From Ariolimax columbianus (taxonomy: Eukaryota > Mollusca > Gastropoda > Stylommatophora > Arionidae), in contig JAVGWX010000012.1 of NCBI GenBank assembly GCA_036924085.1, positions 3,093,099 through 3,157,098 of the forward strand: a DNA stretch of 64,000 nt, in the 5' to 3' direction. The notes beneath the pieces were generated by a model. It made no database searches. It saw nothing but the letters and a program-made list of their open reading frames with translations, and was not told where the DNA came from. Positions within the stretch are counted from its first letter, which is position 1; every line of letters begins with the position of its first letter. A program made the position numbers and the translations under genes. Of this stretch, positions 2,041 to 51,519 are shown one piece after another.

Positions 2041-2066
2041 TGTCACGAGATGTGATTGTGATAATA

Positions 2067-6102: not shown

Positions 6103-6174
6103 CTGTCAAAAATGGTGATAACATAGGTATGGATAGAAGAGGGAGAAATAACGAGATATTGGAAGTAGCACTAT

Positions 6175-6250
6175 AAGTTATGTTGGTGATGGTGTTGGTG
6201 GTGATGTTGGTGATGATGTTGGTGGTGATGTTGGTGATAACGTGATAATG
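6175..6250. repeat. GGTGATGTT-type trinucleotide-derived repeat next to the lectin exon
   Basis: A short imperfect (GGTGATGTTGGTGATG) run 70-150 bp upstream of the lectin-1 exon, in the intron. The equivalent intron position is much longer in gene 2 (51520-51870) and gene 3 (26035-26930, CATCAC in plus sense). Confidence 0.8.
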
Positions 6251-6251
6251 A

Positions 6252-21260: not shown

Positions 21261-23254
21261 TTACCTCCCTAAACTACAGACCGAAACATGGATGGTCATT
21301 TTTTTCATCTGGCAAATGACCACCATTTTCGTCTCTACTATCCAAAATGTAAACACTACTCCTGTTTACAACTTCACTCACATCGTACATGCATAAAAAG
21401 ACATGTCATTTGATACATATAAACTTTTTGTAATACATACACAATCAATACAAGCAGAAGAAAAACACTGTGGCTGGTCGTTTTTACAAAACAACACTTT
21501 TACATCGTTTTGCAGTCAAATACACCCAAGTCTGTCCCTGCGGGACCTTTAACTCATCAAAACAGAAACACCTTAAGGAATTCTCCTTACTCATTGAGGT
21601 CAACATACCTTGCCCTGTTCTCGTGCCTTCCTCTAAGAACACGAACCTTCATTGTTACACTCGACCAGTTCAGGTCAATTTTCTCCGGTGGTCTCATTAC
21701 ACGCCTCTCCTACGACCCATGTCCGACAATTCACTTCATACTAACTCCTGTGAGGCCACGAACTTACGTGGGTTATCCTCAGGCTAGTTATCACTGTATT
21801 TCTTGACAGCTATCCCCTCTCAAAGAAAACTGCAAAATTCTTTATGTTTCCCACAAAAACGATATTCGACAACATATGTCATAATCAATATTACAACTTC
21901 TGATCAATATAGTCTTCTCTGCAAAGACTTCACATACATGTGATAAAATATACACCATAACAAGTCAGTAACTACAACACTAAGTCAGCCAGCTCAGTGT
22001 TCCAACATGCTATTTCTTGTTCTGGAACTCGTGGTGACTTCTGTTTGCGCAGGCCTACAGTCTGGATGAGATATACTGCTCTGTAGATCACCTTTATAAC
22101 CTGTATCAAATACCTGTAAACATGATGATTCAACAACAACAACAAAAACCAACAAAACACAAGACAAATGCATTGCATACAATGTCGAAACCCAAAACCT
22201 AAATATTTGCACGCATACTTATGAAATCAATATTTCAGTCAGCAAGTATCACACTTTGATACTGTCAGGATATGTAATCATGTTTAAACAACAAAACAAC
22301 AACAAAATAAAGACAAATTCAATGCATACTATATCGACCATACAATACACTAAAAATGCAAGTAATACCATTTGTCAAAATCCAAACACCAAATACAAAT
22401 GTCAAAATATTTGCACGCCTACTCATGATATCAGTATTTCAGTCCGTAAGTATCACACCTTGATACTTATGTAACGACACATAATCATGTTGAAACAAAC
22501 AACAACAATCAATTAAAGTGCAAGTAATACGATTGTCAAAATAAATCCAAATATCAAAATATTTACACACATAAACATGACCAAGTGCCATCAACCTTCA
22601 CTCCTGCTCGTGCCCCAAAGATGAGCACCTGTTAATGCCCCCTATATAAGATACTAAACTATGACTAAGTTCTACTAGACTATGTCACTAAACTATGACT
22701 TAGTTGTAACTTAATCAGATACTAACTATGTCTGAGTCAAAAGTCAAAAACCGAATCGTCCACCTGTCGAATTACGTCATGCTGTAACCCTACTCGTCCA
22801 GGTGCAGTCTTTGTCACGAGGAATCAAAACTGAGTGTTGTGATCTAACTAATTCACCGCTGTTTCCCCACATCAAAAACTCCCTGGTCAGATTTTGACCG
22901 AAACATCACGTCCACGTGTTACCCCGCGTTGCGTAATCATTACCTGGCGCATCCAGCTATCCTGCGTCTCTTGTCCGTTCTGTCCGTTTCTCTAGTCGGA
23001 AATGTCCCTTTGATCTCGGTCAGTCTTCGCTTCAGACTGACCGTCCGCTCATTGTCTGGCGTGTACTTCAGACAACGAATTCAAAGGAATGTTTAACATC
23101 TGGTCATTCCTCCATCTCTATACCCTACCCCCTAATTATCCAAATCTCCGTTTCCCAAGGATAACGGTAGATGAAACAAAATTTATGCAAATGCATACAT
23201 TAACTGGAGTTTCACATGATAGCCCATGTGTGTAAGTACTCCACACGACTTTAC

Positions 23255-23956
23255 CTAATTCCATTTCTGAATTCCATGTTTTTGGCTAGCGTCAGTTAAA
23301 CATTGTATCAACCGTTCCTTATCTCTACTGCTTATTTTAACCAGACTATGCGCTGCCCCATCAGGTGTCTCTGATTGCTGCGCGATTTCCTCCTGTAAAA
23401 CGCGCATCGTCTGATCTGTTTGTTTCACGGTTGTTTGGTTCGTATCCACCGGTTCTCTGGTAGTGTTACGTACACTTACATCGTCCGCTACTTCAGCCTT
23501 CCGTCCATCTGTATTCACTATTTGTATGACAGACCTTTCACACTGTTCGTTTGACTGTTGGCTTATTTCGAACTGAAATCTTTTCTTCTTTGCTTCGATG
23601 ACTGGTTCGCCGTCCTGCCTGTGGTTACACTGTCTTTCCCTTTTCTTCGTTTTCCTTAGAAACTCTGTTCCTCCTTTGTTGGCTGCACGAGTATTCTTAC
23701 CCGGTGCGTCCGTTTCACATTCCAACTGTGCGTCATTCCCACTTCCGTACTCGGTGGTCGAAGGGTTGTCCCATCTTTCGGTTTGTTCAACAACTTCTCC
23801 TACATGGCTAGGCCCTGCCACCGTTCCTCCTCCTCTCATTTCCTCTTTATCTGACGAATCTCCGACTATTTCCTTGTTCGAATCTTCGTCGACTTTAACT
23901 AATGTTCTACCAGGCTTGACCACAAGTTCCTGGTAAACTTGGCACCCTTTCAGCAC
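23255..23956 (-). pseudogene. LTR element copy 1, C-terminal part of internal protein
   Basis: 233 residues, hydrophilic and Lys/Glu/Gln/Thr-rich (VYQELVVKPGRTLVKVDE, GTEFLRKTKKRERQ, QTMRVLQEEIAQQSE). It is in a different frame from 24012-24521, whereas in copy 2 the two parts form one 391-residue frame (46449-47624). Copy 1 therefore carries a frameshift. No enzymatic domain; likely largely disordered. Confidence 0.7.
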
Positions 23957-24011
23957 GCCCGACCATGTTAATCGACGTAATACCCTCTTCCTGAATTATC
24001 GGCCTACACTG

Positions 24012-24521
24012 TCAGATGCTGTTACTTTTCATCAGGACCTTTGAGCGAACGTTTGTCTCGTTTGCATTGCGTAATCTGCCCTCCGTCCCTAACTTTTCTG
24101 GATACACAAAACCTGTATCTCTTTCTTTCTGTCCATCCGCCTCGTGCTTATAGTCTCTTTGATAGCTCCTGTCCTGCCTCTCCATCTGTAACCGTGCAAA
24201 AGGCCTCTTGTGGGCTAAGAATCTGCCCGATTCAAACTTCTGCCCAACCATTCCTCCTCCTCTCATTTGACTTGGCCTCTCCACCTGGGTCAAACTCCAA
24301 TGGTTTTCGCCTCCTCTTTCCAGTCGTCCACTGACGTCCGTCCTGAGATTTCCACCCCTGTCCCTCCACGGATCGGAATGTGGAAGTTGGATGGGCTTCC
24401 TACTCACTTTCCTACCACTCTGTCCCCTTCCAAAATACTGGGCCGTGTTTACTCCTGTGATTTCTTGATTTCTTCTCTCCTTCCTAGCTGGTTTGAAAGC
24501 TCCCTTTTCAAACTGTTGCAA
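24012..24521 (-). pseudogene. LTR element copy 1, middle part of internal protein
   Basis: 169 residues, Arg/Gly/Gln-rich (SQMRGGGMVGQKFESGRF, MERQDRSYQRDYKHEADG), consistent with an RNA-binding Gag-like tail. It overlaps the upstream CCHC frame by 14 bases in another frame (+1 relative). The overlap zone reads FGWKEENDLQWKLRQLLQQF in this frame, which looks like genuine helical protein. The same overlap exists in copy 2, so it predates both insertions. Confidence 0.65.
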
Positions 24522-24816
24522 CAGCTGCCGCAGCTTCCATTGGAGGTCGTTTTCCTCTTTCCAGCCGAATAACTCTGCCTGTTAGTTCTCTTAGCTGGTT
24601 TTGTAGTTGACTTTTGTCCTCCCACTTATCGCTGACTGTAGCTAGTGCCATGAAAGGCTTGTTTTTGACAAACAGTCCTTTTCTCCAGACAACGTTCGTA
24701 TTCCGAATTATATTTGGGCATCCTATAGACAAATGTCCAAAAGCTAGACAATGATAACATTGTTTAACATTGTTTAACCTCGACATATTTAATAAACTCG
24801 TCTGGCCCACCAACAA
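24508..24816 (-). CDS. LTR element copy 1, CCHC zinc-knuckle (Gag nucleocapsid-like) ORF
   Basis: 102 residues. Near the N-terminus lies CYHCLAFGHLSIGC, a C-x2-C-x4-H-x4-C zinc knuckle as in retroelement nucleocapsids, followed by a basic/helical tail (QLQNQLRELTGRVIRLERG). There is no matrix or capsid part upstream, so it is not a complete Gag unless an upstream exon or another start is used. The counterpart in copy 2 is 46020-46325, about 85% identical. Being kept open in both copies suggests it was functional when the element last moved. Confidence 0.7.
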   Translation of the reverse strand: MLVGQTSLLNMSRLNNVKQCYHCLAFGHLSIGCPNIIRNTNVVWRKGLFVKNKPFMALATVSDKWEDKSQLQNQLRELTGRVIRLERGKRPPMEAAAAVATV

Positions 24817-25065
24817 AGTTTATAAGACTGTTAAGTACGCACAAAGTCTTGTCAATAATACAACAATAAGTGGAAGAAAAATGTCACACTTACCAGTCAG
24901 ATGATTGGAAAAGCTGTCTATGGTAACTAACACTCTAACCACTAGCTACTCCTCTATTCCTAACTACACACACAAAAGTTATATATAACTGCAACACTTG
25001 TGTTACACAGGCAAATAAAGATCTGTAGCTACACACACTATATTTATAAAACTATAACTATCCGT

Positions 25066-25079
25066 GGTCACTGGCACCA
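25066..25079 (-). other. Candidate primer-binding site, LTR element copy 1
   Basis: TGGTGCCAGTGACC on the minus strand, starting with the TGG expected opposite a tRNA CCA end and lying 14 bp inside the 5' LTR. Copy 2 has TGGTGCCGTGACC at 45754-45766. The matching tRNA was not identified. Confidence 0.45.
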
Positions 25080-25093
25080 AAATAATAATAACG

Positions 25094-26034
25094 TGTAGCA
25101 GACCCTCTGCTTGCCCTGGCCGTTATTCTAACTTAGAACATTCGGACACTCATCCACATCATCATGACCATACTCAGTAAATGACATATCACACAGCAGG
25201 TGGCATATTTATTAAATCATACTCATATCATAGAATGAGTAGAGAAATTACAAACACAATATAATACATATCTTTACTAAACATTCTACTAAAACGGGAA
25301 TTGTAAGCATTAGCTATTGATGGAATTCCCAACTATCTAAAAACCCAGTTCTATTGCATTCCAATTACATCATACACACATCGCATTAACTGCGTCTTCA
25401 ACACACCTTATCAAATACTCTTCCTCACTGAAATCCCCTCAGGCGGGCGATCTCGACATAACTCGTTCACAATGTGTCCTTGCTTACAAACACACGTTCA
25501 GATTATCTATTAATGCAAAACTCACACACCTATTTGAGCGATCCTGTTCTATCACTAAACAGTCTATCAATCGCTCCTCTACCTAAGTCGGTGAGTAAAC
25601 ATACTATCCACATTCAGTCTCTCTCTCTCTCTCAATCTCCTCCATACAGCCTCTCTCTCTAGCCTCTCTCCATCCCTCTATCCAGCCTCACTCTCTAAAC
25701 TTTGTCTCGAGTTATATATCCTCAAGCAAGGCCAGAGCTTGACCAATCGATCTCAGGTGATGGTCATCTTCAATCCAATTGGACCGAAACACTTTGCACA
25801 CATGTCACTCCATTTCTCTCGCAGCAAGCCCCGCTGCCAATTTCGTCTGTCAATCAATCTCCCCCTACCAAAATCGGAAGGCCAGTGGTCAGTTTCTACC
25901 TGTCCACATTCCTTAACCCAACTCTGTTCTCCTTTGCTGAGACGGTGAGTTACCTTGACATGCATTCAGGTAGCTTCAGGCTTTAACATGTTCATGCATC
26001 CTAAACTCCCCTTGCTCCGGCGGGAACTGTTACA
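25094..26034 (-). repeat. 5' LTR of LTR element copy 1
   Basis: 941 bp, minus sense TGTAACAGTTCCCGCC...GGTCTGCTACA. Partner of 20318-21260. Contains GGATATATAACTCGAG (TATA-like) about 30 bp beyond ATTGG, and AATAAA further on, as expected for an LTR carrying promoter and poly(A) signals. Confidence 0.9.
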
Positions 26035-26930
26035 ACATCATCACTACCATCATCACCAACATCATCAATACCATCACCACTACCATCACCACTACCATCA
26101 CCACTACCATCATCATCACTACCATCATCAATACCATCATCATCACTACCATCATCACCAACATCATCACTACCATCATCACCAACATCATCACCAACAT
26201 CATCGCTACCATCACCACTACCATCATTACCACCATCACTACCATCATCACCACCATCACCACCACCACCATCACTACCATCATCACCACCATCACCACC
26301 ACCACCATCACTACCATCATCACCACCATCACCACCACCACTATCACTACCATCATCACCACCACCACCATCACTACCACCATCATCACCAAGAACATCA
26401 CTACATCCATCACCACTACCATCACCACTACCATCATCACTACCATCATCACTACCACCATCATCACCATCATCACTACCACCATCATCACTACCATCAT
26501 CACTACCATCATCATCACCATCATCACTACCATCATCACTACCACCATCATCACCATCATCAGTACCACCATCATCACTACCACCATCATCACCATCATC
26601 ACTACCACCATCATCACTACCATCATCACTACCATCATCACTACCATCATCACTACCACCATCATCACCACCACCATCATCACTACCATCATCACTACCA
26701 TCATCACTACCATCATCACTACCATCATCACTACCATCATCACCACCATCATCACTACCATCATCACTACTACCATCATCACTACCATCATCACTACTAC
26801 CATCATCACTACCACCATCATCACTACCACCATCATCACCACCATCATCACTACCATCACCACTACCATCATCACTACCACCATCATCACCATCATCACT
26901 ACCATCATCACTACCATCAATACTAACGTG
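26035..26930. repeat. (CATCAC/CATCAT)n trinucleotide-derived array
   Basis: About 900 bp of ATCATCACTACC-type units. His/Tyr-rich plus frames and Asp/Gly/Ser- or Met/Val-rich minus frames are artefacts. The same motif class occurs at the equivalent intron position upstream of the lectin exon in genes 1 and 2, so this is probably the 3' part of the lectin-3 intron. Confidence 0.95.
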
Positions 26931-27017
26931 ATCATCACCAACGTCACTCAAATCGGTATTTTCATCTCTCTCTCTCTCCAACTTTCATTCTCTCTGTTTT
27001 ATCATCATTTCTGACAG

Positions 27018-27325
27018 CATTGATACAACAAGGAAACGTTGACTGTGGATCATCCGCCAACTACCAGTTTATCCCAGGTACCAGTGAACACGTACAGAGG
27101 ATCCAGAAACAATCGGCTAACTACGTCACGTTTCCGAAAGCTCACAGATCTGTCCCGAGAGTCGTCGTGTCTGTCTACTTTCTGGACAGCCTGCAGTCTG
27201 AGAACCTCAGATACAATATCCGAGTATTTGATGTCAGCGACAGGGGGTTCCAGCTCAACTGTATCACGTGGTGGACTACTTATATTTACGGACTGAGGGT
27301 CACCTGGACCAGTTTCGATAACTAG
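27018..27325 (+). CDS. H-type lectin gene 3, terminal (lectin-domain) exon
   Basis: Plus-strand exon after a TTTCTGACAG acceptor, opening CA (phase 1) then LIQQGNVDCGSSANYQF and ending VTWTSFDN-stop. Cys of VDCG and Cys of LNCITW are conserved, as is the Arg of ENLRYN. The sugar-site pattern is W-W-x4-Y (TWWTTYIYG) instead of W-H-x4-Y, so binding may differ. It lacks the acidic, Cys-ended tail of genes 1 and 2. By eye it is about 60% identical to them. No signal-peptide exon was found upstream; an LTR element (20318-26034) separates it from any earlier exon. It could be intact with a distant first exon, or orphaned. Confidence 0.8.
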
Positions 27326-34450: not shown

Positions 34451-34519
34451 TGAGAGCATTAAATGTGGTTATTTGATAGCGAACGACTGAAAAGGAGTAG
34501 GTTTCTCTTCTTATTTATA

Positions 34520-34770
34520 TATTTCTGGGATTCCGTTGCGAAATGGTTAAGCCGTCGGCCTCGTGATCTGGAGGTGTGGGTTCGACTCCGGATTTCGCCG
34601 TCTTTTTCACGGGTGCTTGAGTCCCCTGCATCTCGTAGTCGCCCCCCAGTCGTCGTGTCCTTGACTTTGCCACTGGGGCTCGAGACGAGAGAGTGTGGAT
34701 AAAAAGTAGCGCAGTTAATCCTTACAAAACATAGCGCTAGCAAATAAATTATGCCATCATCTTCTACGAT
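34520..34770 (+). mobile_element. tRNA-derived SINE-like element
   Basis: GCGAAATGGTTAAGCCGTCG resembles a D-arm/A box. Thirty bases on is GGTTCGACTCC, a perfect B box (GGTTCRANTCC). Between them is TCGGCCTCGTGATCTGGAGG, reminiscent of a tRNA-Thr(CGT) anticodon arm, but the acceptor stem does not close, so it is not a working tRNA. About 200 bp of non-tRNA body follow. No tail or target duplication is obvious. It sits at the junction between the satellite and LINE-C. Confidence 0.6.
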
Positions 34771-34859
34771 GGACAGCGGACTTTCCCTATTTATATACAT
34801 TTAGCTTGTTCTGTTGAGTTCGCTGAAGGGATCGGTTTTTCTAGGTTATATTTAGGAGG

Positions 34860-35265
34860 AGATGGACATCGCCTAGCGACAGCGTCCGAAGTCACACCCA
34901 TCATGAGAGAACCCGTCTACTCTACCGGTTCGGTCAAAGCCCGGGTCAACAATGACCGCGCCTGCCGTCCCACACCAGGGACGGGAGGAGGTAACAAGCG
35001 TGAAACTGGTGACACCATCAAACTCACAAAGGACAACTCCGTCTTAAAAACATGGAATGTTAGAACACTGAATCCGTGCGAGACAATCAAATAGCTGACA
35101 CACTTGATGGACATATATAAATGGAAGGTCCCGGCATATGCGAAAGTAAACCACACAGGAAGGTTACACATTATTTTCCAGTAGCAGAGAAGACAAAGGT
35201 TTATACAGAATGGTGATGCTGGTTCATAAAAGTCACTGCTAGATGTGTCTAGGGCTGTCGACCAA
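34860..35265 (+). pseudogene. LINE-C: 5' end and N-terminal part of endonuclease domain
   Basis: A frame from ATG 34903 gives NNDRACRPTPGTGGGNKRET, then DTIKLTKDNSVLKTWNVRTL, the signature start of the apurinic-type endonuclease of an endonuclease-RT LINE (often annotated 'craniofacial development protein 2-like'). A stop follows at 35092. Beyond it, in other frames, come HLMDIYKWKVP, GYTLF, MLVHK and GCRPRSDRCISTRLKE, all expected in this order. The last segment is the seed of the satellite that follows. Decayed by stops and frameshifts. Confidence 0.82.
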
Positions 35266-38200
35266 GATCTGACCGATGTATCAGCACACGACTCAAAGAA
35301 ACAACATTTAACATCACTATACAAGATCTGACCGATGTATCAGCAGACGACTCAAAGAAACATTTAACATCACTATTCAAGATCTGACCGATGTATCAGC
35401 ACACGACTCAAAGAAACAACATTTAACATCACTATACAAGATCTGACTGATGTATCAGCACACGACTCAAAGAAACATTTAACATCACTATTCAAGATCT
35501 GACCGATGTATCAGCACACGACTCAAAGAAACAACATTTAACATCACTATACAAGATCTGACTGATGTATCAGCACACGACTCAAAGAAACATTTAACAT
35601 CACTATACAAGATCTGACTGATGTATCAGCACACGACTCAAAGAAACACCATTTAACATCACTATACAAGATCTGACTGATGTATCAGCATACGACTCAA
35701 AGAAACATTTAACATCACTATACAAGATCTGACTGATGTATCAGCACACGACTCAAAGAAACATTTAACATCACTATACAAGATCTGACTGATGTATCAG
35801 CACACGACTCAAAGAAACATTTAACATCACTATACAAGATCTGACTGATGTATCAGCACACGACTCAAAGAAACACCATTTAACATCACTATACATGATC
35901 TGACTGATGTATCAGCACACGACTCAAAGAAACATTTAACATCACTATACAAGATCTGACTGATGTACCAGCACACGACTCAAAGAAACATTTAACATCA
36001 CTATACAAGATCTGACTGATGTATCAGCACACGACTCAAAGAAACATTTAACATCACTATACAAGATCTGACTGATGTATCAGCACACGACTCAAAGAAA
36101 CACCATTTAACATCACTATACATGATCTGACTGACGTATCAGCACACGACTCAAAGAAACATTTAACATCACTATACAAGATCTGACTGATGTATCAGCA
36201 CACGACTCAAAGAAACATTTAACATCACTATACAAGATCTGACTGATGTATCAGCACACGCCTCAAAGAAACATTTAACATCACTTTCCAAGATCTGACC
36301 GATGTATCAGCACACAACTCAAAGAAACGTTTAACATCACTATACAAGATCTGACCGATGTATCAGCACACGACTCAAAGAAACATTTAACATCACTATA
36401 CAAGATCTGACTGATGTATCAGCACACGACTCAAAGAAACATTTAACATCACTATACAAGATCTGACCGATGTATCAGCACACGACTCAAAGAAACAACA
36501 TTTAACATCACTATACAAGATCTGACCGATGTATCAGCACACGACTCAAAGAAACATTTAACATCACTATACAAGATCTGACCGATGTATCAGCACACGA
36601 CTCAAAGAAACATTTAACATCACTATACAAGATCTGACCGATGTATCAGCACACGACTCAAAGAAACATTTAACATCACTATACAAGATCTGACTGATGT
36701 ATCAGCACACGACTCAAAGAAACATTTAACATCACTATACAAGATCTGACTGATGTATCAGCACACGACTCAAAGAAACAACATTTAACATCACTATACA
36801 AGATCTGACCGATGTATCAGCACACGACTCAAAGAAACATTTAACATCACTATACAAGATCTGACTGATGTATCAGCACACGAATCAAAGAAACACCATT
36901 TAACATCACTATACAAGATCTGACTGATGTATCAGCACACGACTCAAAGAAACATTTAACATCACTATACAAGATCTGACTGATGTATCAGCACACGACT
37001 CAAAGAAACATTTAACATCACTATACAAGATCTGACCGATGTATCAGCACACGACTCAAAGAAACATTTAACATCACTATACAAGATCTGACTGATGTAT
37101 CAGTACACGACTCAAAGAAACACCATTTAACATCACTATACAAGATCTGACTGATGTATCAGCACACGACTCAAAGAAACACCATTTAACATCACTATAC
37201 AAGATCTGACTGATGTATCAGCATACGACTCAAAGAAACATTTAACATCACTATACAAGATCTGACTGATGTATCAGCACACGACTCAAAGAAACATTTA
37301 ACATCACTATACAAGATCTGACTGATGTATCAGCACACGACTCAAAGAAACATTTAACATCACTATACAAGATCTGACTGATGTATCAGCACACGACTCA
37401 AAGAAACACCATTTAACATCACTATACATGATCTGACTGATGTATCAGCACACGACTCAAAGAAACATTTAACATCACTATACAAGATCTGACTGATGTA
37501 CCAGCACACGACTCAAAGAAACATTTAACATCACTATACAAGATCTGACTGATGTATCAGCACACGACTCAAAGAAACATTTAACATCACTATACAAGAT
37601 CTGACTGATGTATCAGCACACGACTCAAAGAAACACCATTTAACATCACTATACATGATCTGACTGATGTATCAGCACACGACTCAAAGAAACATTTAAC
37701 ATCACTATACAAGATCTGACTGATGTATCAGCACACGACTCAAAGAAACATTTAACATCACTATACAAGATCTGACTGATGTATCAGCACACGCCTCAAA
37801 GAAACATTTAACATCACTTTCCAAGATCTGACCGATGTATCAGCACACAACTCAAAGAAACGTTTAACATCACTATACAAGATCTGACTGATGTATCAGC
37901 ACACGACTCAAAGAAACATTTAACATCACTATACAAGATCTGACCGATGTATCAGCACACGACTCAAAGAAACAACATTTAACATCACTATACAAGATCT
38001 GACCGATGTATCAGCACACGACTCAAAGAAACATTTAACATCACTATACAAGATCTGACCGATGTATCAGCACACGACTCAAAGAAACATTTAACATCAC
38101 TATACAAGATCTGACCGATGTATCAGCACACGACTCAAAGAAACATTTAACATCACTATACAAGATCTGACTGATGTATCAGCACACGACTCAAAGAAAC

Positions 38201-41200
38201 ATTTAACATCACTATACAAGATCTGACTGATGTATCAGCACACGACTCAAAGAAACAACATTTAACATCACTATACAAGATCTGACCGATGTATCAGCAC
38301 ACGACTCAAAGAAACATTTAACATCACTATACAAGATCTGACTGATGTATCAGCACACGACTCAAAGAAACATTTAACATCACTATACAAGATCTGACTG
38401 ATGTATCAGCACACGACTCAAAGTAACACCATTTAACATCACTATACAAGATCTGACTGATGTATCAGCACACGACTCAAAGAAACATTTAACATCACTA
38501 TACAAGATCGGACTGATGTATCAGCACACGACTCAAAAAAACAACATTTAACATCACTATACAAGATCTGACCGATGTATCAGCACACGACTCAAAGAAA
38601 CATTTAACATCACTATACAAGATCTGACCGATGTATCAGCACACGACTCAAAGAAACATTTAACATCACTATACAAGATCTGACCGATGTATCAGCACAC
38701 GACTCAAAGAAACATTTAACATCACTATACAAGATCTGACTGATGTATCAGCACACGACTCAAAGAAACATTTAACATCACTATACAAGATCTGACTGAT
38801 GTATCAGCACACGACTCAAAGAAACAACATTTAACATCACTATACAAGATCTGACCGATGTATCAGCACACGACTCAAAGAAACATTTAACATCACTATA
38901 CAAGATCTGACTGATGTATCAGCACACGAATCAAAGAAACACCATTTAACATCACTATACAAGATCTGACTGATGTATCAGCACACGACTCAAAGAAACA
39001 TTTAACATCACTATACAAGATCTGACTGATGTATCAGCACACGACTCAAAGAAACATTTAACATCACTATACAAGATCTGACCGATGTATCAGCACACGA
39101 CTCAAAGAAACATTTAACATCACTATACAAGATCTGACTGATGTATCAGTACACGACTCAAAGAAACACCATTTAACATCACTATACAAGATCTGACTGA
39201 TGTATCAGCACACGACTCAAAGAAACACCATTTAACATCACTATACAAGATCTGACTGATGTATCAGCATACGACTCAAAGAAACATTTAACATCACTAT
39301 ACAAGATCTGACTGATGTATCAGCACACGACTCAAAGAAACATTTAACATCACTATACAAGATCTGACTGATGTATCAGCACACGACTCAAAGAAACATT
39401 TAACATCACTATACAAGATCTGACTGATGTATCAGCACACGACTCAAAGAAACACCATTTAACATCACTATACATGATCTGACTGATGTATCAGCACACG
39501 ACTCAAAGAAACATTTAACATCACTATACAAGATCTGACTGATGTACCAGCACACGACTCAAAGAAACATTTAACATCACTATACAAGATCTGACTGATG
39601 TATCAGCACACGACTCAAAGAAACATTTAACATCACTATACAAGATCTGACTGATGTATCAGCACACGACTCAAAGAAACACCATTTAACATCACTATAC
39701 ATGATCTGACTGATGTATCAGCACACGACTCAAAGAAACATTTAACATCACTATACAAGATCTGACTGATGTATCAGCACACGACTCAAAGAAACATTTA
39801 ACATCACTATACAAGATCTGACTGATGTATCAGCACACGCCTCAAAGAAACATTTAACATCACTTTCCAAGATCTGACCGATGTATCAGCACACAACTCA
39901 AAGAAACGTTTAACATCACTATACAAGATCTGACTGATGTATCAGCACACGACTCAAAGAAACATTTAACATCACTATACAAGATCTGACCGATGTATCA
40001 GCATACGACTCAAAGAAACAACATTTAACATCACTATACAAGATCTGACCGATGTATCAGCACACGACTCAAAGAAACATTTAACATCACTATACAAGAT
40101 CTGACCGATGTATCAGCACACGACTCAAAGAAACATTTAACATCACTATACAAGATCTGACCGATGTATCAGCACACGACTCAAAGAAACATTTAACATC
40201 ACTATACAAGATCTGACTGATGTATCAGCACACGACTCAAAGAAACATTTAACATCACTATACAAGATCTGACTGATGTATCAGCACACGACTCAAAGAA
40301 ACAACATTTAACATCACTATACAAGATCTGACCGATGTATCAGCACACGACTCAAAGAAACATTTAACATCACTATACAAGATCTGACTGATGTATCAGC
40401 ACACGAATCAAAGAAACACCATTTAACATCACTATACAAGATCTGACTGATGTATCAGCACACGACTCAAAGAAACATTTAACATCACTATACAAGATCT
40501 GACTGATGTATCAGCACACGACTCAAAGAAACATTTAACATCACTATACAAGATCTGACCGATGTATCAGCACACGACTCAAAGAAACATTTAACATCAC
40601 TATACAAGATCTGACTGATGTATCAGTACACGACTCAAAGAAACACCATTTAACATCACTATACAAGATCTGACTGATGTATCAGCACACGACTCAAAGA
40701 AACACCATTTAACATCACTATACAAGATCTGACTGATGTATCAGCATACGACTCAAAGAAACATTTAACATCACTATACAAGATCTGACTGATGTATCAG
40801 CACACGACTCAAAGAAACATTTAACATCACTATACAAGATCTGACTGATGTATCAGCACACGACTTAAAGAAACATTTAACATCACTATACAAGATCTGA
40901 CTGATGTATCAGCACACGACTCAAAGAAACACCATTTAACATCACTATACATGATCTGCCTGATGTATCAGCACACGACTCAAAGAAACATTTAACATCA
41001 CTATACAAGATCTGACTGATGTACCAGCACACGACTCAAAGAAACATTTAACATCACTATACAAGATCTGACTGATGTATCAGCACACGACTCAAAGAAA
41101 CATTTAACATCACTATACAAGATCTGACTGATGTATCAGCACACGACTCAAAGAAACACCATTTAACATCACTATACATGATCTGACTGATGTATCAGCA

Positions 41201-42643
41201 CACGACTCAAAGAAACATTTAACATCACTATACAAGATCTGACTGATGTATCAGCACACGACTCAAAGAAACATTTAACATCACTATACAAGATCTGACT
41301 GATGTATCAGCACACGCCTCAAAGAAACATTTAACATCACTTTCCAAGATCTGACCGATGTATCAGCACACGACTCAAAGAAACGTTTAACATCACTATA
41401 CAAGATCTGACCGATGTACCAGCACACGACTCAAAGAAACATTTAACATCACTATACAAGATCTGACTGATGTATCAGCACACGACTCAAAGAAACATTT
41501 AACATCACTATACAAGATCTGACCGATGTATCAGCACACGACTCAAAGAAACAACATTTAACATCACTATACAAGATCTGACCGATGTATCAGCACACGA
41601 CTCAAAGAAACATTTAACATCACTATACAAGATCTGACCGATGTATCAGCACACGACTCAAAGAAACATTTAACATCACTATACAAGATCTGACCGATGT
41701 ATCAGCACACGACTCAAAGAAACATTTAACATCACTATACAAGATCTGACTGATGTATCAGCACACGACTCAAAGAAACATTTAACATCACTATACAAGA
41801 TCTGACTGATGTATCAGCACACGACTCAAAGAAACAACATTTAACATCACTATACAAGATCTGACCGATGTATCAGCACACGACTCAAAGAAACATTTAA
41901 CATCACTATACAAGATCTGACTGATGTATCAGCACACGACTCAAAGAAACACCATTTAACATCACTATACAAGATCTGACTGATGTATCAGCACACGACT
42001 CAAAGAAACATTTAACATCACTATACAAGATCTGACTGATGTATCAGCACACGACTCAAAGAAACATTTAACATCACTATACAAGATCTGACCGATGTAT
42101 CAGCACACGACTCAAAGAAACATGTAACATCACTATACAAGATCTGACTGATGTATCAGTACACGACTCAAAGAAACACCATTTAACATCACTATACAAG
42201 ATCTGACTGATGTATCAGCACACGACTCAAAGAAACATTTAACATCACTATACAAGATCTGACTGATGTATCAGCACACGACTCAAAGAAACATTTAACA
42301 TCACTATACAAGATCTGACTGATGTATCAGCACACGACTCAAAGTAACACCATTTAACATCACTATACAAGATCTGACTGATGTATCAGCACACGACTCA
42401 AAGAAACATTTAACATCACTATACAAGATCGGACTGATGTATCAGCACACGACTCAAAGAAACATTTAACATCACTATACAAGATCTGACCGATGTATCA
42501 GCACACGCCTCAAAGAAACATTTAACATCACTATACAAGATCGGACCGATGTATCAGCACACGACTCAAAGAAACATTTAACATCACTATACAAGATCGG
42601 ACCGATGTATCAGCACACGACTCAAAGAAACATTTAACATCAC
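35266..42643. repeat. 56/59-bp higher-order satellite, about 130 copies, derived from LINE-C endonuclease
   Basis: Unit GATCTGACTGATGTATCAGC plus ACACGACTCAAAGAAACATT plus TAACATCACTATACAA (56 bp); a 59-bp type has ACAACATTT or ACACCATTT. In one frame the first, 59-bp unit reads SDRCISTRLKETTFNITIQ, the endonuclease segment expected exactly here between GCRP upstream and the rest of the domain at 42644. Diagnostic variants recur at the same spacing: TCACTTTCCA at 36281, 37814, 39860, 41337 (1533, 2046, 1477 bp) and CAGTACACGA at 37101, 39147, 40624, 42157 (2046, 1477, 1533 bp). The array therefore has higher-order repeats of about 26, 27 and 36 monomers. Confidence 0.93.
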
Positions 42644-42972
42644 TAGGAAACAGTGACCAGATAATGATAAGGGTCAAATAGATTCTTCGATGAGCAAAGA
42701 AAGACATGCAGGTGGTACAAGAGGAATGGAATGTCATTGAGGAAGAGGCAGTAAAAGATTGGAGAGGAACCTGCGGACCATGTGGAAACAAATGACCAAG
42801 GACTAAAACTGCTGGAATTTCCATGCTACAACAAGGTACTGTTGGGAAACACGTTGGGACGAATGGACACGGAACAGCCGAGTGAAGAGGTACATAGGCA
42901 AAAAGATTATTTAGTGGTCGAGGAATGATTCAGATCCAGCATCCGGTAGATGCAGGAAGGGACCATGTGGAT
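42644..42972 (+). pseudogene. LINE-C: C-terminal part of endonuclease domain, copy a
   Basis: Directly after the satellite the plus strand reads AKKDMQVVQEEWNVIEEEAV, DWRGTCGPCGN and, after a one-base shift, NDQGLKLLEFPCYNKVLLGN. These match the K-K-D-I-x-V-V-Q-G-D-W-N, D-W-x-G-T-C-G-P and N-x-x-G-L-x-L-L-E-F blocks of the endonuclease, C-terminal to the part at 34860-35265. The general acid/base residues are changed (Q-E-E-W-N instead of Q-G-D-W-N), consistent with decay. Confidence 0.8.
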
Positions 42973-43256
42973 GTGAAGTAAAGTAAAGTAAAGTAAAGTA
43001 AAGTAACCCATAGCATTTCTGCCGTAGGGGTGTAACGTGTTAGTGATCTCACATTTAAAAGGCTCGCCTATATCAGGGCGGTAGCCATCTCCTCTCCCTC
43101 GCCGCTTTTACTTCCCGGTACCCATTTAAGTCTGGGTCGATCCGGCAGCCATTGCGGTCTGAAAAAACATTACCGCCTCAACTATTGAATGAACTCAGGA
43201 CCACTCAGAAACGAAGCCAGCGCGCTAACCACTACGCTACGCGGCTCCAAAACCAT
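42973..43256 (-). mobile_element. tRNA-derived SINE-like insertion with (TTTAC)n tail
   Basis: Minus sense begins GGAGCCGCGTAGCGTAGTGG followed by TTAGCGCGCTGG, an A-box-like tRNA head, with a B-box-like GGTCCTGAGTTC 30 bp on. The body includes TTAAATGGGTACCGGGAAGT, and the element ends in (TTTAC)n, seen on the plus strand as (AGTAA)n at 42977-43005. It is inserted between two tandem copies of the LINE-C endonuclease segment. Confidence 0.65.
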
Positions 43257-43500
43257 TACTTTACCGTGTGGAAACAAGGGAACAAATGACCAACAATTAA
43301 AACTCCGGGAATGTGTATGCTACAATAAGGTACTGTTGTGAAACACGTTGGGACCAAATGGACATGGAACAGCCGAGTAAAGAGGTACATAGACTTCATA
43401 GTGGTCGAGAAATGATTCAGATCTAGCATGTATATTGCTCGGGCAGGAAGCTTCCCCGGGGGAGATTTAGGAAGGGACCATGTTGGCGACTAGCCGTCTC
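43257..43500 (+). pseudogene. LINE-C: C-terminal endonuclease segment, copy b (tandem duplicate)
   Basis: Repeats 42775-42972: CCGTGTGGAAACAAGGGAAC, NDQQLK, CYNKVLL, and the stretch GAATGATTCAGATC. By eye about 85% identical to copy a. The duplication plus SINE insertion added about 500 bp to the element. Confidence 0.75.
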
Positions 43501-43672
43501 CATCTAAGGAAAGTCGTAAGCTAATAGACAACTAGAATAAGATTATACCGTGACAAATTAAAACACTCGGAGATAATAGAAGCTGTCGGTGCCATGACAG
43601 GAGAAATATTTGCACCGCTCACTGTCCTTCTGGAAGAGCCAGATATTGATGACGTACACTTTTGTATGCAGC
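43501..43672 (+). pseudogene. LINE-C: linker between endonuclease and reverse transcriptase
   Basis: Plus frame YRDKLKHSEIIEAVGAMTGE then IFAPLTVLLEEPDID matches the conserved linker (E/D-K-L-x-x-P-x-x-x-x-x-F-Q-A-x-x-G-G-x-F-A-x-L) downstream of the endonuclease in this LINE type. Confidence 0.7.
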
Positions 43673-44296
43673 AGTAATAGACCCAACAAGAGCTATCCTA
43701 GTAATAGACCCAACAAGAGATATCCTAGTAATAGACAAGAGCTATCCTAGTAATAGACCCAACAAGAGATATCCTAGTAATAGACAAGAGCTATCCTAGT
43801 AATAGACCCAACAAGAGATATCCTAGTAATAGACAAGAGCTATCCTAGTAATAGACAAGAGCTATCCTAGTAATAGACCCAACAAGAGATATCCTAGTAA
43901 TAGACCCAACAAGAGCTATCCTATTAATAGACAAGAGCTATCCTAGTAATAGACCCAACAAGAGCTATCCTAGTAATAGACAAGAGCTATCCTAGTAATA
44001 GACCCAACAAGAGCTATCCTAGTAATAGACAAGAGCTATCCTAGTAATAGACCCAACAAGAGATATCCTAGTAATAGACCCAACAAGAGCTATCCTAGTA
44101 ATAGACAAGAGCTATCCTAGTAATAGACCCAACAAGAGCTATCCTAGTAATAGACAAGAGCTATCCTAGTAATAGACCCAACAAGAGCTATCCCAGTAAT
44201 AGACCCAACAAGAGCTATCCCAGTAATAGACCCAACAAGAGCTATCCCAGTAATAGACCCAACAAGAGCTATCCCAGTAATAGACCCAACAAGAGC
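43673..44296. repeat. 27/22-bp minisatellite inside LINE-C
   Basis: Units AGTAATAGACCCAACAAGAG plus CTATCCT (27 bp) and a 22-bp form lacking CCAAC, mixed irregularly over about 25 copies; the last five are homogeneous 27-bp units with CCCAGTAAT. A second tandem expansion inside the same LINE. Confidence 0.95.
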
Positions 44297-44794
44297 TGTA
44301 TTGAAGTGTATAAAGAACACTCCAGATTGGTCCAACACTTATTGCGTGATAAATCGAGAAATATCGTTCAAGGTTAAAGATTCAACATAGTTGTGGATCG
44401 CTGAGCAGTATAAGGTTATTGAGCATGCACATATTAGGCAGACGCGATGCTCACAGCGGTATACAATATTGTCAACAATCTAGTAAGGCCTATACAAGGT
44501 CATAGCACGATAATGCACCATAAGAATAGAAAATACCTTAGAAAGGTATTGATTGGCACGCTGGACGGAATACCGATCGGAACCTGACAATCTTGAGTGT
44601 CAGGGTGAGCCAGAAAATGCAATCGACCCCTGACCTCCTGGGATTGATGAAGACTAACAGATAACTAAAGAAGAGGTGGCTGAATCGGCGAAGACCTTCA
44701 AGAAGGAGAAATCCGCTGGAGTGGATACAATCCAGGCAGAACTCATTCAGATTGGTGGAGATGCAATCATTAACATCCATCTGCAATTGAATAT
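44297..44794 (+). pseudogene. LINE-C: linker and start of reverse transcriptase, cut by LTR element
   Basis: Fragments in order: FKVKDSTxLWIAEQYKVIEH, LARWTEYRSEPDN (near 44560), then the continuous frame ITKEEVAESAKTFKKEKSAG followed by VDTIQAELIQIGGDAI (about 44655-44770). This is the N-terminal RT block (K-S-A-G-V-D-x-I-x-A-E-L). It ends exactly at 44794, where TGTAACAG of the LTR begins. The RT continuation was not found on the far side (50362 onward), because the 3' LTR end is also missing there. Confidence 0.8.
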
Positions 44795-45739
44795 TGTAAC
44801 AGTTCCCGCCGGACCAAGGGGAGTTTAGGATGCCTGAACATGTTAAAGCTTAAAGCTACCTGAATGCATGTCAAGGTCACTCACCGTCTCAGCAAAGGAG
44901 AACAGAGTTGAGTTAAGGAATGTGGACAGGTAGAAACTGACCACTGGCCTTCCGATTTTGGTAGGGGGAGATTGATTGACAGACGAAATTGGCAGCGGGG
45001 CTTGCTGCGAGAGAATGAATGACAGGTGTGCAAAGTGTTTCGTTCCAATTGGGATTGAAGATGACCATACCTGAGATTGATTGGTCAAGCTCTGGCCTTG
45101 CTTGAGGATATATAACTCGAGACAAAGTTTAGCTCAAGAGGGGAGAGAGAGTGAGGCTGGAGAGAGAGTGAGGCTGTATGGAGAGTGAGAGAGAAAGAGA
45201 CTGAATGTGGATAGTATGTTTAACTCACCGACTTAGGTAGAGGAGCGATTGATAGACTGTTGGACGAATGTTTAGTGATAGAACAGGATCGCTCAAATAG
45301 GTGTGTGAGTTTTGCATTAATAGATAATGTGAAAGTGTGTTTGTAAGCAAGGACACATTGTGAACGAGTTATGTCGAGATCGCCCGCCTGAGGGGATTTC
45401 AGTGAGGAAGAGTATTTGATAAGGTGTGTTGAAGACGCAGTTAAGGCGATGTGTGTGTGATGCAATTGCAAGGCAATAGAACTGGGTTTTTAGATAGTTG
45501 GGAATTCCATCAATAGCTAATGCTTACAATTCCCGTTTTAGTTGAATGTTTGGTTAAGATATGTATTATATTGTGTTTGAAATTTCTCTACTCATTCTAT
45601 GATATGAGTATGATTTAATAAATATGCCACCTGATGTGTGATATGTCATTTACTGAGTATGGTCATGATGATGTGGATGAGTGTGAGAATGTTCTAAGTT
45701 AGATCACGGCCAGGGCAAAGAAATAGAGGATCTGCTACA
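44795..45739 (+). repeat. 5' LTR of LTR element copy 2
   Basis: 945 bp, TGTAACAGTTCCCGCC...GATCTGCTACA. Contains ATTGG near 45078, TATATAA at 45109-45115, a GA-rich tract at 45130-45200 and AATAAA at 45617-45622: a plausible promoter and poly(A) layout, inferred from motifs. Confidence 0.92.
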
Positions 45740-45753
45740 CGTTATTATTATTT

Positions 45754-45766
45754 TGGTGCCGTGACC
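45754..45766 (+). other. Candidate primer-binding site, LTR element copy 2
   Basis: TGGTGCCGTGACC, starting 14 bp after the 5' LTR. It begins with TGG as expected for pairing to a tRNA CCA end. Which tRNA it would pair with is not known from this window. Confidence 0.45.
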
Positions 45767-46019
45767 AGGATAGTCGTGGTAGATTTATAAATATAGTGCG
45801 TGTGTAGCTATAGATCTTGATTTGCATGTTTAACACAAGTGTCGCAGTTAAATATAACTTGTGTGTGTAGTTAGGAATAGAGGAGTAGCTAGTGGTTAGA
45901 GTGTTAGAACCATAGACAGCTTTTCCAATCATCTGACTGGTAAGTGTGACATTTGTCTTCCACCCATTGTTGTATTATTGACAAGACTTTGTGCGTACTT
46001 GATAGTCTTATAAATTTTT

Positions 46020-46325
46020 TTGGTGGGCCAGACGGGTTTATTCAATATGTCGAGGTTGGACAATGTTAAACAATGTTATCATTGTCTAGCTTTTGGACAT
46101 TTGTCTATCGGATGCCCTAATATTCTTCGGAATATTAACAGTTCCTGGAGAGGAGGACTGTTTGTCAAAAGCAAGCCTTTCATGGCACTAGCTACAGCCA
46201 GCGATAAGTGGGAGGACAGAAGTCAACTACAAAACCAGCTAAGAGAACTAACAGGCAGAGTTATTCGGCTGGAAAGAGGAAAACGACCTCCAATGGAAGC
46301 TACGACAGCTGTTGCAACAGTTTGA
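46020..46325 (+). CDS. LTR element copy 2, CCHC zinc-knuckle ORF
   Basis: 101 residues with CYHCLAFGHLSIGC (C-x2-C-x4-H-x4-C) near the start and a helical basic tail, ending PPMEATTAVATV-stop. The probable start is the internal ATG of MSRLDNVKQ or the first ATG a few codons earlier. As in copy 1, a second frame overlaps its end (WKEENDLQWKLRQLLQQFEN), suggesting two overlapping products or an ancestral frameshift. Likely nucleic-acid binding. Confidence 0.7.
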   Translation: MVGQTGLFNMSRLDNVKQCYHCLAFGHLSIGCPNILRNINSSWRGGLFVKSKPFMALATASDKWEDRSQLQNQLRELTGRVIRLERGKRPPMEATTAVATV

Positions 46326-46448
46326 AAACGGAGCTTTCAAACCAGCCAGGAAGGAGCTTTCAAACCAGCTAGGAAGGAGAGAAGAAATCAAGAAATCACA
46401 GGAGTAAACACGGCCCAGTATTTTAGAAGGGGACAGAGTGGTAGGAAA

Positions 46449-47624
46449 GTGAGTAGGAAGCCCATCCAAGTTCCACATTCCGATCCGTGGAGGGACAGAG
46501 GTGGAAATCTCAGGACGGACGTGTGTGGACGACTGGAAAGAGGTTGCGAAAAGGGTAGGAGTTTGACCCAGGTGCAGAGGCCAAGTCAAATGAGAGGAGG
46601 AGGAATGGTTGGGCAGAAGTTTGAATCGGGCAGATTCTTAGCCCACAAGAGGCATTTTGTACGGTTACAGATGGAGAGGCAGGACAGGAGCTATCAAAGA
46701 GACTTTAAGCACGAGGCGGATGGACAGAAAGAAAGAGATACAGGTTTTGTGTATCCAGAAAAGTTAGGGACGGAGGGCAGGTTACGCAATGCAAACGAGA
46801 CAAACGTTCGCTCAGAGGTCCAGATAAAATGTTACCGCATCGGACAGTGTAGGCCGAGAATTCAGGAAGAGGGTATTACGTCGATTAACATGGTCGGGCG
46901 TGCTGAAAGGAGCCAAGTTTACCAGGAACTTGTGGTCAAGCCTGGTAGAACATTAGTTAAAGTCGACGAAGAATCGAACAATGAAATAGTCAGAGATTCG
47001 TCAGATAAAGAAGAAAGGAGAGGAGGAGGAATGGTGGCAGGACCAGCTATGGTTTCGTGCCCACCCAAGCCAGGTTCTAGCCATGCGGGAGAAGTGGTTG
47101 AACAGACCGAAAGAAGGGACAACCCTTTGGCCACCGAGGAAGGAAGTGTGAATGACGCACAGTTGGAATACGAAACGGACGCACCAACAGCAGCCAACAA
47201 AAGAGGAACAGAGTTTCTAAGGAAAACGAAGAAAAGGGAAAGACAGGTTAAAAACAGCCAGGACAGCGAACCAGTCATCGAAGCAAAGATGAAAAGATCT
47301 CAGTTCGAAATAAGCCAACAGTCAAACGAACAGTGTGAAAAGTCTTTCCCACAAATAGTGAATACAGATGGACGGAAGGCTGAAGTAGCGGACGATGTAA
47401 GTGTACGTAACACTACCAGAGAACCGGCGGGTACGAACCAAACAACCGTGAAACAAACAGACCAGACGATGGGCGTTTTACAGGAGGAAATCGCGCAGCA
47501 ATCGGAGACAGCTGATGGGGCAACGCATAGTCTGGTTAAAATAAGCAGTAGTGATAAGGAACGGTTGATACAATGTTTACTGACGCTAGCCAAAAACATG
47601 GAATTCAGAAATGGAATTAGGTAA
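46449..47624 (+). CDS. LTR element copy 2, long hydrophilic ORF of unknown function
   Basis: 391 residues from the first ATG; the frame is open further upstream to about 46350. The N-terminal third is Arg/Gly-rich (SQMRGGGMVGQKFESGRF). The rest is acidic/basic and probably disordered (SSDKEERRGGGMVAGPAMV, FLRKTKKRERQ). No protease, RT, RNase H or integrase signature. A 23-bp duplication at about 46335-46378 (CTTTCAAACCAGC twice) changes the frame relation to the CCHC ORF compared with copy 1. The product is unrecognised; by position it would be the C-terminal part of a Gag-like protein. Confidence 0.6.
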   Translation: MSRKPIQVPHSDPWRDRGGNLRTDVCGRLERGCEKGRSLTQVQRPSQMRGGGMVGQKFESGRFLAHKRHFVRLQMERQDRSYQRDFKHEADGQKERDTGFVYPEKLGTEGRLRNANETNVRSEVQIKCYRIGQCRPRIQEEGITSINMVGRAERSQVYQELVVKPGRTLVKVDEESNNEIVRDSSDKEERRGGGMVAGPAMVSCPPKPGSSHAGEVVEQTERRDNPLATEEGSVNDAQLEYETDAPTAANKRGTEFLRKTKKRERQVKNSQDSEPVIEAKMKRSQFEISQQSNEQCEKSFPQIVNTDGRKAEVADDVSVRNTTREPAGTNQTTVKQTDQTMGVLQEEIAQQSETADGATHSLVKISSSDKERLIQCLLTLAKNMEFRNGIR

Positions 47625-49631
47625 AGTCGTGTGGAGTACTTACACACATGGGCTATCATGTGAAACTCCAGTTAATGTCGTGTGGAGTACTTACACACAT
47701 GGGCTATCATGTGAAACTCCAGTTAATGTATGCATTTGCATAACATTTGTTTCATCTACCGTTATCCTTGGGAAACGGAGATTTGGATAATTAGGGGGTA
47801 GGGTATAGAGAAGGAGGAATGACCAGATGTTAAAAATTCCTTTGAATTCGTTGTCTGAAGTACACGCCAGACAATGAGCGGACGGTCAGTCGGAAGCGAA
47901 GACTGACCGAGATCAAAGGGACATTTCCGACCAGAGAAACGGACAAGAGACGCAGGATAGCTGGATGCGCCAGGTAATGATTACGCGACGCGGGGTAACA
48001 CATAGACGTGATGTTTCGGTCAAAATCTGACCAGGGAGTTTTTGATGTGGGGAAACAGCGGTGAATTAGTTAGATCACAACACTCGGTTTTGATTCCTCG
48101 TGACAAAGACTGCAACTGGACTAGTCGGGTTACAGCATGACGTAATTCGACAGGTGGACGATTCGGTTTTGACTTTTGACTCAGACATAGTTTAGTATCT
48201 GATTAAGTTAGAACTTAGTCATAGTTTAGTGACATAGTTTAGTATCTGATTAAGTTACAACTTAGTCATAGTTTAGTGACATAGTTTAGAACTTAGTCAT
48301 TAGTTTAGTATCTTTTGAAGGGGGCATTAACAGGTGCTCATCTGTGGGGCACGAGCAGGAGTGAAGGTTGATGGCACTTGGTCATGTTTATGTGTGTAAA
48401 TATTTTGATATTTGGATTTTGACAAGCGTATTACTTGCACTTTAATTGATTGTTGTTGTTTGTTTAAACATGATTATGTGTCCTGACATAAGTATCAAGG
48501 TGTGATACTTACGGACTGAAATACTGATATCATGAGTAGGCGTGCAAATATTTTGACATTTGTATTTGGTGTTTGGGTTTTGACTAATGGTATTACTTGC
48601 ATTTTTAGTGGGTTGTATGGTCGACATAGTATGCATTGAATTTTTCTTTATTTTGTTGTTGTTTTGTTGTTTAAACATGATTACATATCCTGACAGTATC
48701 AACGTGTGATACTTGCTGACTGAAATATTGATATCATAAGTATGCGTGCAAATATTTTGACATTTGTATTTAGTGTTTGGGTTTCGACATTGTATGCAAT
48801 GCATTTGTCTTGTGTTTTGTTGTTGTAGTTTTTTTTTGTTGTTGTTGAATCATCATGTTTACAGGTATTTGATACAGGTTATATAGGTGATGTACAGAGC
48901 AGTATATCTCATCCAGACTGTAGGCCTCCGCAAGCACAAGTCACCACGAGTTCCAGAATCACATGTATGTGGAGTCTTTGCAGAGAAGACTACATTGATC
49001 AGAAGTTTTAATATTGACTATGACATATGTTGTCAAATATCGTTTTTGTGGGAAACATAAAGAATTTTGCTGTTTTCTTTGAGAGGGGATAGCTGTCAAG
49101 AGAGACAATGATAACTAGCCTGAGGATAACCCACGTAAATTCGTGGCCTCACAGGAGTTAGTATGAGGTGAATCGTCGGACAGGCGTGTAATGAGACCGC
49201 CTGAGAAAATTGACCTGAACTGGTCGTGTGTAACAATGAAGGTTCGTGTCCTTAGAGGAAGGCACGGGAACAGGGCGAGGTATATTGACCTCAATGAGTA
49301 AGGAGAATTCCTTAAGGTGTTTCTGTTTTGATGAGTTAAAGGTCCCGCAGGGACAGACTTAGGTGAATTTGACTGTAAAACGATGTAAAAGTGTTGGTTT
49401 GTGTTGTAAAAACGACCAGCCAGTGTTTTTCTTCTGCTTGTATTGATTGTGTATGTATTACAAAAAGTTTATATGTATCAAATGACATGTCTTTTATGCA
49501 TGTACGATGTGAGTGAAGTTGTAAACAGGAGTAGTGTTTACATTTTGGATAGTGAAGACGAAAATGGTGGTCATTTGCCAGATGAAAAAAAAATGACCAT
49601 CCATGTTTCGGTCTGTAGTTTAGGGAGGTAA

Positions 49632-51113: not shown

Positions 51114-51442
51114 TTACACACAGTCATAATCTTCTTCATCATCGAAACTGGTCCAGGTGAGTCTCAGTCCATAAATGTAAGTGTTATGCCAGGTAATACA
51201 ACTGACCTGGAAACCCATCTTGGTGACAGATGACACACGGATTTCGTATCTGAGGTTTTCAGATTGCAGGCTGTCGAGGAAGAACACAGAGGCGGTAATC
51301 GTCGGCATAGTTTTGTAAGCTTGTGGAAACGTCACGGAGTTGGCAGATTGTCGCTCGTTCAATCTGATATTATCATTGCATCCTGGAATGAGCTGGAAGT
51401 TGGAGGATGCTCCACAGTCAACATTTCCTTGCTGTATAAGTG
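51114..51442 (-). CDS. H-type lectin gene 2, terminal (lectin-domain) exon
   Basis: Paralogue of 5774-6102, with the same acceptor position (TTTTTTACAG), same phase and same length: 329 nt, 108 residues after the split codon. About 95% identical protein. Conserved: both disulfide cysteines (VDCG, VSCITW), Arg of ENLRYE, and W-H-x4-Y (TWHNTYIYG). Differences from gene 1 include His40 to Cys (PGCNDN, a new unpaired cysteine), V64M, T94M, HHTF to HNTY and the last residue M to V. Substitutions are mostly mild and the frame is intact, so gene 2 is probably functional. Role: secreted, probably GalNAc/Gal-binding lectin (family knowledge). Confidence 0.88.
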
Positions 51443-51519
51443 CTGTAAAAAATGGTGATAACATAGAGGTATGGATAGAAGAGGGAGAAATAACGAGATA
51501 TTGGAAGTAGCACTATACG

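Follow-up and report, generated by a model that had tools for sequence, protein, structure and literature searches.

Results

The 64,000-nucleotide stretch of Ariolimax columbianus DNA analysed here (the window) contains a head-to-tail tandem array (array 1) whose most likely origin is tandem duplication in place inside a decayed LINE, since the segment from which its unit derives is single in the aligned LINE copies and the array has LINE sequence on either side. The same contig carries the locus again in inverted orientation, and each of two arrays within the LINE grew in one copy of the locus and stayed small in the other: as assembled, array 1 has 130 units in the window and 11 in the paralogue, whereas array 2 occupies 0.6 kb in the window and 45 kb in the paralogue. 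The history that we consider very probable as a whole is one of in-place seeds in a decayed LINE, inverted duplication of the locus, and independent growth of the arrays thereafter. The features of the window locus, and the arrays in other LINE copies, are listed in Table 1.

Table 1. Features of the array-bearing LINE locus in the window, and LINE-segment arrays in other copies.
Feature	Coordinates	Strand	Basis and remarks
tRNA-like SINE just upstream of the LINE	34512-34803 (limits approximate)	+	By eye; 38 of 40 scored genomic places match at 84-88%
5′ part of the decayed LINE, from endonuclease start to GCRP (TWNVRTLN, LVHK, GCRP), with frameshifts and stops	34840-35262	+	tblastn of P0001; frames
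Array 1	35263-42645	+	130 units of 56/59 bp; endonuclease codons (SDRCISTRLKETTFNITI); higher-order blocks
Endonuclease continuation (KKDMQVVQ, DWRGTCGP, LKLLEF...)	42646-42975	+	Frames; tblastn; LINE-copy alignment
Probable SINE insertion with (AAGTA)n tail, shorter in the paralogue	42976-43257 (limits approximate)	-	Sequence reading; TRF (AAGTA x6.2); paralogue alignment
LINE endonuclease end and linker	43258-43672	+	tblastn of P0001; part of 42784-42942 recurs within at 82%
Array 2	43673-44297	+	27-bp (nine codons, VIDPTRAIL) and 22-bp units, in the LINE linker; TRF
LINE linker to start of reverse-transcriptase region (KSAGVDTIQAEL)	44298-44800	+	Frames; tblastn; 92.3% to paralogue
LINE-segment array, L012			21 bp
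LINE-segment array, L015			53 bp
LINE-segment arrays, L022			53 bp and 16 bp
LINE-segment array, L023			15 bp, at the array 2 position
LINE-segment array, L019			69 bp, in the reverse-transcriptase region

The host LINE and the source of the array 1 unit

The host element is a LINE with an apurinic-type endonuclease upstream of the reverse transcriptase in a single ORF, the domains being those of a relative, P0001, which was the sole hit among 2,275 candidates in a broad protein search (E 1.2e-41) and contains Exo_endo_phos (24.5 bits, right at the cut-off) and RVT_1; the joined endonuclease pieces of the window LINE alone gave no Pfam hit. The window LINE is putatively RTE-like. It is decayed, and P0001 aligns with it by tblastn in four collinear stretches (34919-35321, 42748-42943, 43267-43656 and 44292-44774), such that LINE matches follow one another in order across the 5′ part, array 1, the middle part, array 2, and the 3′ part. 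ARAGORN reported no tRNA gene in the window, including at the tRNA-like SINE. A 160-bp stretch of the LINE is present twice at 82% identity (42784-42942 and 43278-43429) with the probable SINE between.

The stretch 35253-35321, across the start of array 1, translates as GCRPRSDRCISTRLKETTFNITI, in which 15 of 23 residues are identical to P0001 residues 128-150; the position of array 1 in P0001 reads GCRPISSRFISLRLRASPFNITI. The 59-bp unit also has a match in LINE copy L014 (positions 612-666 of that reference stretch), and when it was compared with L014 and with L053 none of 300 shuffles attained the score in either case. The first-pass annotation had identified the unit as a LINE endonuclease segment, and the P0001 alignment, together with the further P0001 matches ordered on both sides, bears this out. 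It had also described the array as flanked by the two parts of the endonuclease; GCRP does precede the array and the remainder of the domain does follow it, but KKDMQVVQ does not begin directly at the array end and instead starts ~50 bp beyond. At this 3′ edge the last unit continues into LINE sequence, after which, by reading, ~14 bp of the LINE are absent.

Array 1 is a higher-order repeat array

Cutting array 1 into units yields 94 that are 56 bp long, 35 that are 59 bp long, and a final unit of 54 bp, and TRF returns the same limits with a period of 56, 130 copies and 95% matches, in agreement with the 7.4-kb array originally described. A 29-base unit pattern with up to three mismatches has 130 matches in the window, all on the forward strand and all within array 1, with none elsewhere in the window and none in 100 shuffles; exact matches to the unit junction number 111 in the window. 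The autocorrelation of the array is raised at 1477, 1533 and 2046 bp, the three higher-order periods that had been proposed, and has maxima at 3523 and 5056 bp. Variant units recur in the same order in blocks of 27, 36 and 26 units (1533, 2046 and 1477 bp), with blocks starting at units 6, 33, 69 and 95 (counting from 0), and the longest same-order run of identical units is 25, at lag 36, compared with at most seven in 500 shuffles of unit order. Array 1 is thus a true higher-order repeat array, with ordered multi-unit blocks beyond chance, and from one block to another the first 13 units show differences of 0-4 nt.

A coding role for array 1 was rejected because 129 of the 130 unit lengths are 2 modulo 3 and there are at least 118 stops in each of the six frames, and nothing points to a function of the arrays as protein or RNA. 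The term satellite had been applied to this array, but in its genome-wide sense it does not fit, as array 1 was found at two loci summing to ~8 kb (counts being lower bounds). Array 1 is better described as a minisatellite known from two loci than as a classical genome-wide satellite, which would be abundant, present at many loci or gathered in large heterochromatic blocks.

The unit is single in other LINE copies

A DNA search of the 2.29-Gb genome with a 301-bp array probe (16 first-look candidates and 53 matches, both lower bounds) recovered array 1 of the window, one 11-unit array on the same contig (C12), and at least 14 single-unit matches. In every one of these 14, once retrieved, LINE sequence extends past the unit. 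These 14 and the 12 top copies from a P0001 search, which match P0001 nearly throughout at 54-56%, formed a comparison set of 26 LINE copies. The endonuclease segment is present once in each of the 20 that can be aligned there, the other six having no usable alignment, and in most of the aligned copies it is ~3 bp longer than the 59-bp unit. The 3-bp loss that characterizes the 56-bp form was seen in none of the 20, and both these copies and the 11-unit array support the earlier suggestion that 59 bp is the older length and 56 bp the derived one.

LINE copies elsewhere therefore do not carry unrelated sequence at this position, as 20 of 26 align with a single segment. Nor does the unit occur at many loci lacking LINE flanks; within the limits of a search whose counts are minimum numbers, it is arrayed in the window and in the 11-unit paralogue, is otherwise found as LINE-embedded single units, and is not dispersed as an array. 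The birth of the array in place, as first proposed, agrees with the single segment in these 20 copies and with the continuation of the LINE on both sides. Array 1 is accordingly a minisatellite derived from a transposable element (TE): its unit equals an internal TE segment, the TE is ordered on both sides, and the segment is single in other copies. The state before seeding would presumably have been that of the LINE relatives, from which, rather than from the locus itself, the single-copy form is known.

The number of junction matches tells against this reading. A junction pattern with up to three mismatches has 157 forward and 39 reverse matches in the genome, of which the window and the paralogue account for 129 and 10, respectively. 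The remaining 57 matches (28 forward and 29 reverse), which are weaker, exceed the 12 and 15 obtained with a reversed-pattern control.

We assign next to no probability to the alternative that the LINE acquired, by insertion or capture, a satellite that already existed. Capture of older repeats has been suggested for some MITEs (PMC12628747, in the portion of that review used here), but the array 1 unit consists of the LINE's own codons, is single in 20 aligned copies, and is matched by P0001 from another record.

An inverted duplicate of the locus

The 11-unit array belongs to a second copy of the entire locus, C12:7251920-7203952 (- strand), which is inverted and lies 4.1 Mb from the window locus. 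Four segments outside the arrays align between the window and the paralogue at 94.2, 92.7, 95.4 and 92.3%, with 119 mismatches in 2,000 aligned columns overall. A search with the 757-bp 5′ flank gave 4,641 first-look candidates, and among 40 that were scored just two, those in the window and in the paralogue, extend over its full length; 38 match in the SINE part only.

The boundaries of array 1 are identical in the two loci, which suggests that array 1 probably already had two or more units when the locus was duplicated. Of the 11 paralogue units ten are of 59 bp, the last is cut at the edge, and none has the 3-bp loss. Array 2 of the paralogue (7204515-7249565; 45,051 bp) consists of 22/27-bp units with LINE sequence on both sides (L065, L024-L027, L009), and the LINE that follows it is, by reading, more complete than its window counterpart. 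As the blocks of the window array differ by 0-4 nt, compared with 119 mismatches in 2,000 columns between the loci, block growth is much younger than the duplication. Alternatively, an array of more recent origin may have been spread by gene conversion between the loci, and the order of events would then be different.

Near-identical blocks are difficult to assemble and the evidence comes from the assembly, such that copy numbers, blocks or the paralogous locus might be assembly artefacts. We regard this as very improbable: there are no N bases in the window or in the paralogue stretches (L009, L024-L032), and the loci differ by ~6% in mismatches and in the form of their arrays, which means that a single locus has not been assembled two times here.

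A second array in the same LINE copy

Array 2 of the window has unit spacings of 27 bp (14 times), 22 bp (eight times) and 49 bp (once). Its 27-bp unit aligns to positions 1288-1329 of L014 with a score of 36, narrowly above the best of 300 shuffles (35), and in a comparison with the more distant copy L053 it scored no better than shuffles, 189 of 300 attaining its score. Its assignment to the LINE linker is supported by its position between stretches that match P0001. These data support array 2 as a probable second in-place array of the same LINE copy.

A proposed history of the two arrays

The position of array 1 in the LINE, the single unit in aligned relatives, the shared boundaries, the block structure and the opposite outcomes at the two loci are all observed directly; from them we infer in what order seeding and duplication took place, and by which molecular mechanism the arrays were seeded and grew. 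A LINE encoding endonuclease and reverse transcriptase would have inserted and then decayed, and ~59-62 bp of its endonuclease (array 1) and 27 bp of its linker (array 2) would each have been tandemly duplicated in place. The locus, with both seeds already tandem, would then have been duplicated in inverted orientation 4.1 Mb away, following which each array presumably evolved independently. In the window most array 1 units would have lost 3 bp and the array would have grown to 130 units via block duplications of 26-36 units, as might result from unequal sister-chromatid exchange or replication-based template switching. In the paralogue, array 1 would have remained at 11 units and array 2 would have expanded to its present 45 kb.

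An alternative to local exchange or replication-based duplication is rolling-circle amplification of excised circles and their reinsertion, which could produce large near-identical blocks of 26-36 units. Excised circles would be expected to seed other sites. Within the reach of the searches, however, the array occurs at two loci only, and at one and the same LINE site in both, and we consider this route unlikely.

Microhomology at the seed junctions is suggestive at most as a cause of seeding. It amounts to 2 bp for array 1, a length that 17% of random junctions equal or exceed, and 0 bp for array 2, and at five other LINE arrays, judged against L014, it is 3, 4, 2, 0 and 0 bp; the phases behind all of these values were picked by best alignment. 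Growth driven by hairpins is unsupported, as paired units, taken from array 1 at both loci and from array 2 of the window, fold no better than dinucleotide shuffles on either strand (z 0.18 to 1.15). With the loci inverted, array 1 grew in one orientation only and array 2 only in the other. Whether a seed grows might depend on how it is oriented relative to the replication fork, or to transcription, a single duplication event then giving rise to the reciprocal pair; that array fate in this repeat-rich genome was partly decided by orientation in this manner seems to us decidedly unlikely.

Arrays in other LINE copies

Five of the 14 LINE copies fetched for their likeness to the unit (L012, L015, L019, L022 and L023) carry arrays of other LINE segments (Table 1). 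Four of these six arrays (L012, L015, the 16-bp array of L022, and L023) have LINE matches on both sides, whereas the L019 array is at the end of the reference-covered stretch and the 53-bp array of L022, a copy holding 903 N, has no LINE match on its 5′ side. Support from shuffles is weak for the L023 unit and the 16-bp unit of L022, the score being attained by one of 300 in each test. The two L022 arrays adjoin one another (2062-3001; 53 bp x9.2 and 16 bp x24.1) and derive from nearby endonuclease codons. L015:2572-2986 and L022:2062-2550 are arrays of one 53-bp segment in identical phase, reflecting either inheritance by transposition or a repeated event.

No LINE-segment array was found among 12 copies chosen by an upstream probe, in six of which the LINE match covers under half of the 1.5 kb retrieved; one of the 12, L072, has a 37-bp array beyond the end of its LINE match. 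Likewise, none was found within the L014-matched stretch of the 12 top copies, a choice that disfavours interrupted copies, and the 20-bp array of L020 and the 32-bp array of L013 lie beyond the last LINE match. With arrays in five of 38 copies, a small and partly biased sample, the process looks recurrent. We do not claim that the LINE is a hot-spot for arrays, given five of 14 among unit-like copies against none of 12 in either of the other sets.

The 53-bp array shared in phase by L015 and L022, which are on different contigs and 82-84% alike, indicates that some arrays may be inherited through transposition, and array 1 itself could already have been present in a LINE copy that transposed and brought the array with it. 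To this we give little probability: array 1 was found at one other place, which is a duplicate of the entire locus together with its upstream SINE, and no array of the array 1 unit is present in the 13 of the 14 single-unit relatives that have LINE on both sides of the unit, or in L021, from which part of the upstream LINE is absent. Tandem duplication in place remains the preferred reading for array 1.

Relationship to known TE-derived repeats

Array 1 belongs to a known kind, since tandem repeats derived from TEs, including LINE ORFs, have been described before. Reviews list satellites formed from TE segments, LINE ORFs among them (PMC12628747 and PMC9659126, in the portions consulted), and the entries of PMC9659126 drawn on here include PROsat (L1 ORF2, Phodopus), Pvc 20 (L1 ORF2, harbour seal), and HinfI/SCR1 of chicken (CR1 3′ UTR and part of ORF2). 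In each, as here, a LINE coding segment has become a tandem repeat, but the link as presented in those entries is the similarity of repeat to ORF, whereas here parts of the LINE flank the array and single-unit copies are present in the same genome.

For human, the sections of Ahmed and Liang 2012 (PMC3389668) used here report that 23% of minisatellites and satellites are TE-derived, with local growth after initiation, and that the extra units of a 17-unit AluJo array arose after the split from other primates. As at the A. columbianus locus, those repeats started inside single TE copies and expanded locally. The differences, judged from the same sections, are that human Alu arrays have a mean unit number of ~2.3-2.4, as against 130 units and higher-order blocks here, and that here there is a duplicated locus with opposite fates of two arrays. 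The Haber-Louis model of minisatellite origin, as outlined in that text, resembles the history proposed here in starting from the tandem duplication of a short segment, on which slippage or unequal exchange then acts; as applied there it calls for flanking direct repeats, with 5-20 bp counted. The seed junctions of array 1 (2 bp) and array 2 (0 bp) fall short of the 5 bp minimum.

We found no report of such a mirror pair in the open-licence literature. How tandem arrays start, and why only some of them grow, is an old question, of which this locus gives an unusually clear view. What is special is the presence in one genome of unduplicated copies, a small array, a large array, and a mirror pair: single-unit LINE copies, an array of 11 units, one of 130 units with blocks, and the mirror case of 0.6 versus 45 kb. 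As the two loci descend from a single duplicated piece, differences in starting sequence are largely controlled for, and copy number, rate and local causes are directly comparable between them with long reads and population samples.

Other repeats and coding pieces in the window

Tandem repeats make up 41% of the window, in 37 merged arrays (period at least 7, TRF score at least 100), and 33% of 20 probes of 601 bp taken along contig C12 (score at least 60); other tandem arrays in the window may be TE-derived too. Searches for relatives of P0001 in a bacterial/archaeal collection, and of the array 1 unit in a viral collection, returned none. The window also contains a 4.2-kb inverted duplicate (22020-26038 and 44791-48958) at 89.7% identity. 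Coding pieces resembling H_lectin are present at 5774-6304 and 26927-27325, both of which pass the Pfam cut-off, and a third at 51114-51512 is similar by eye.
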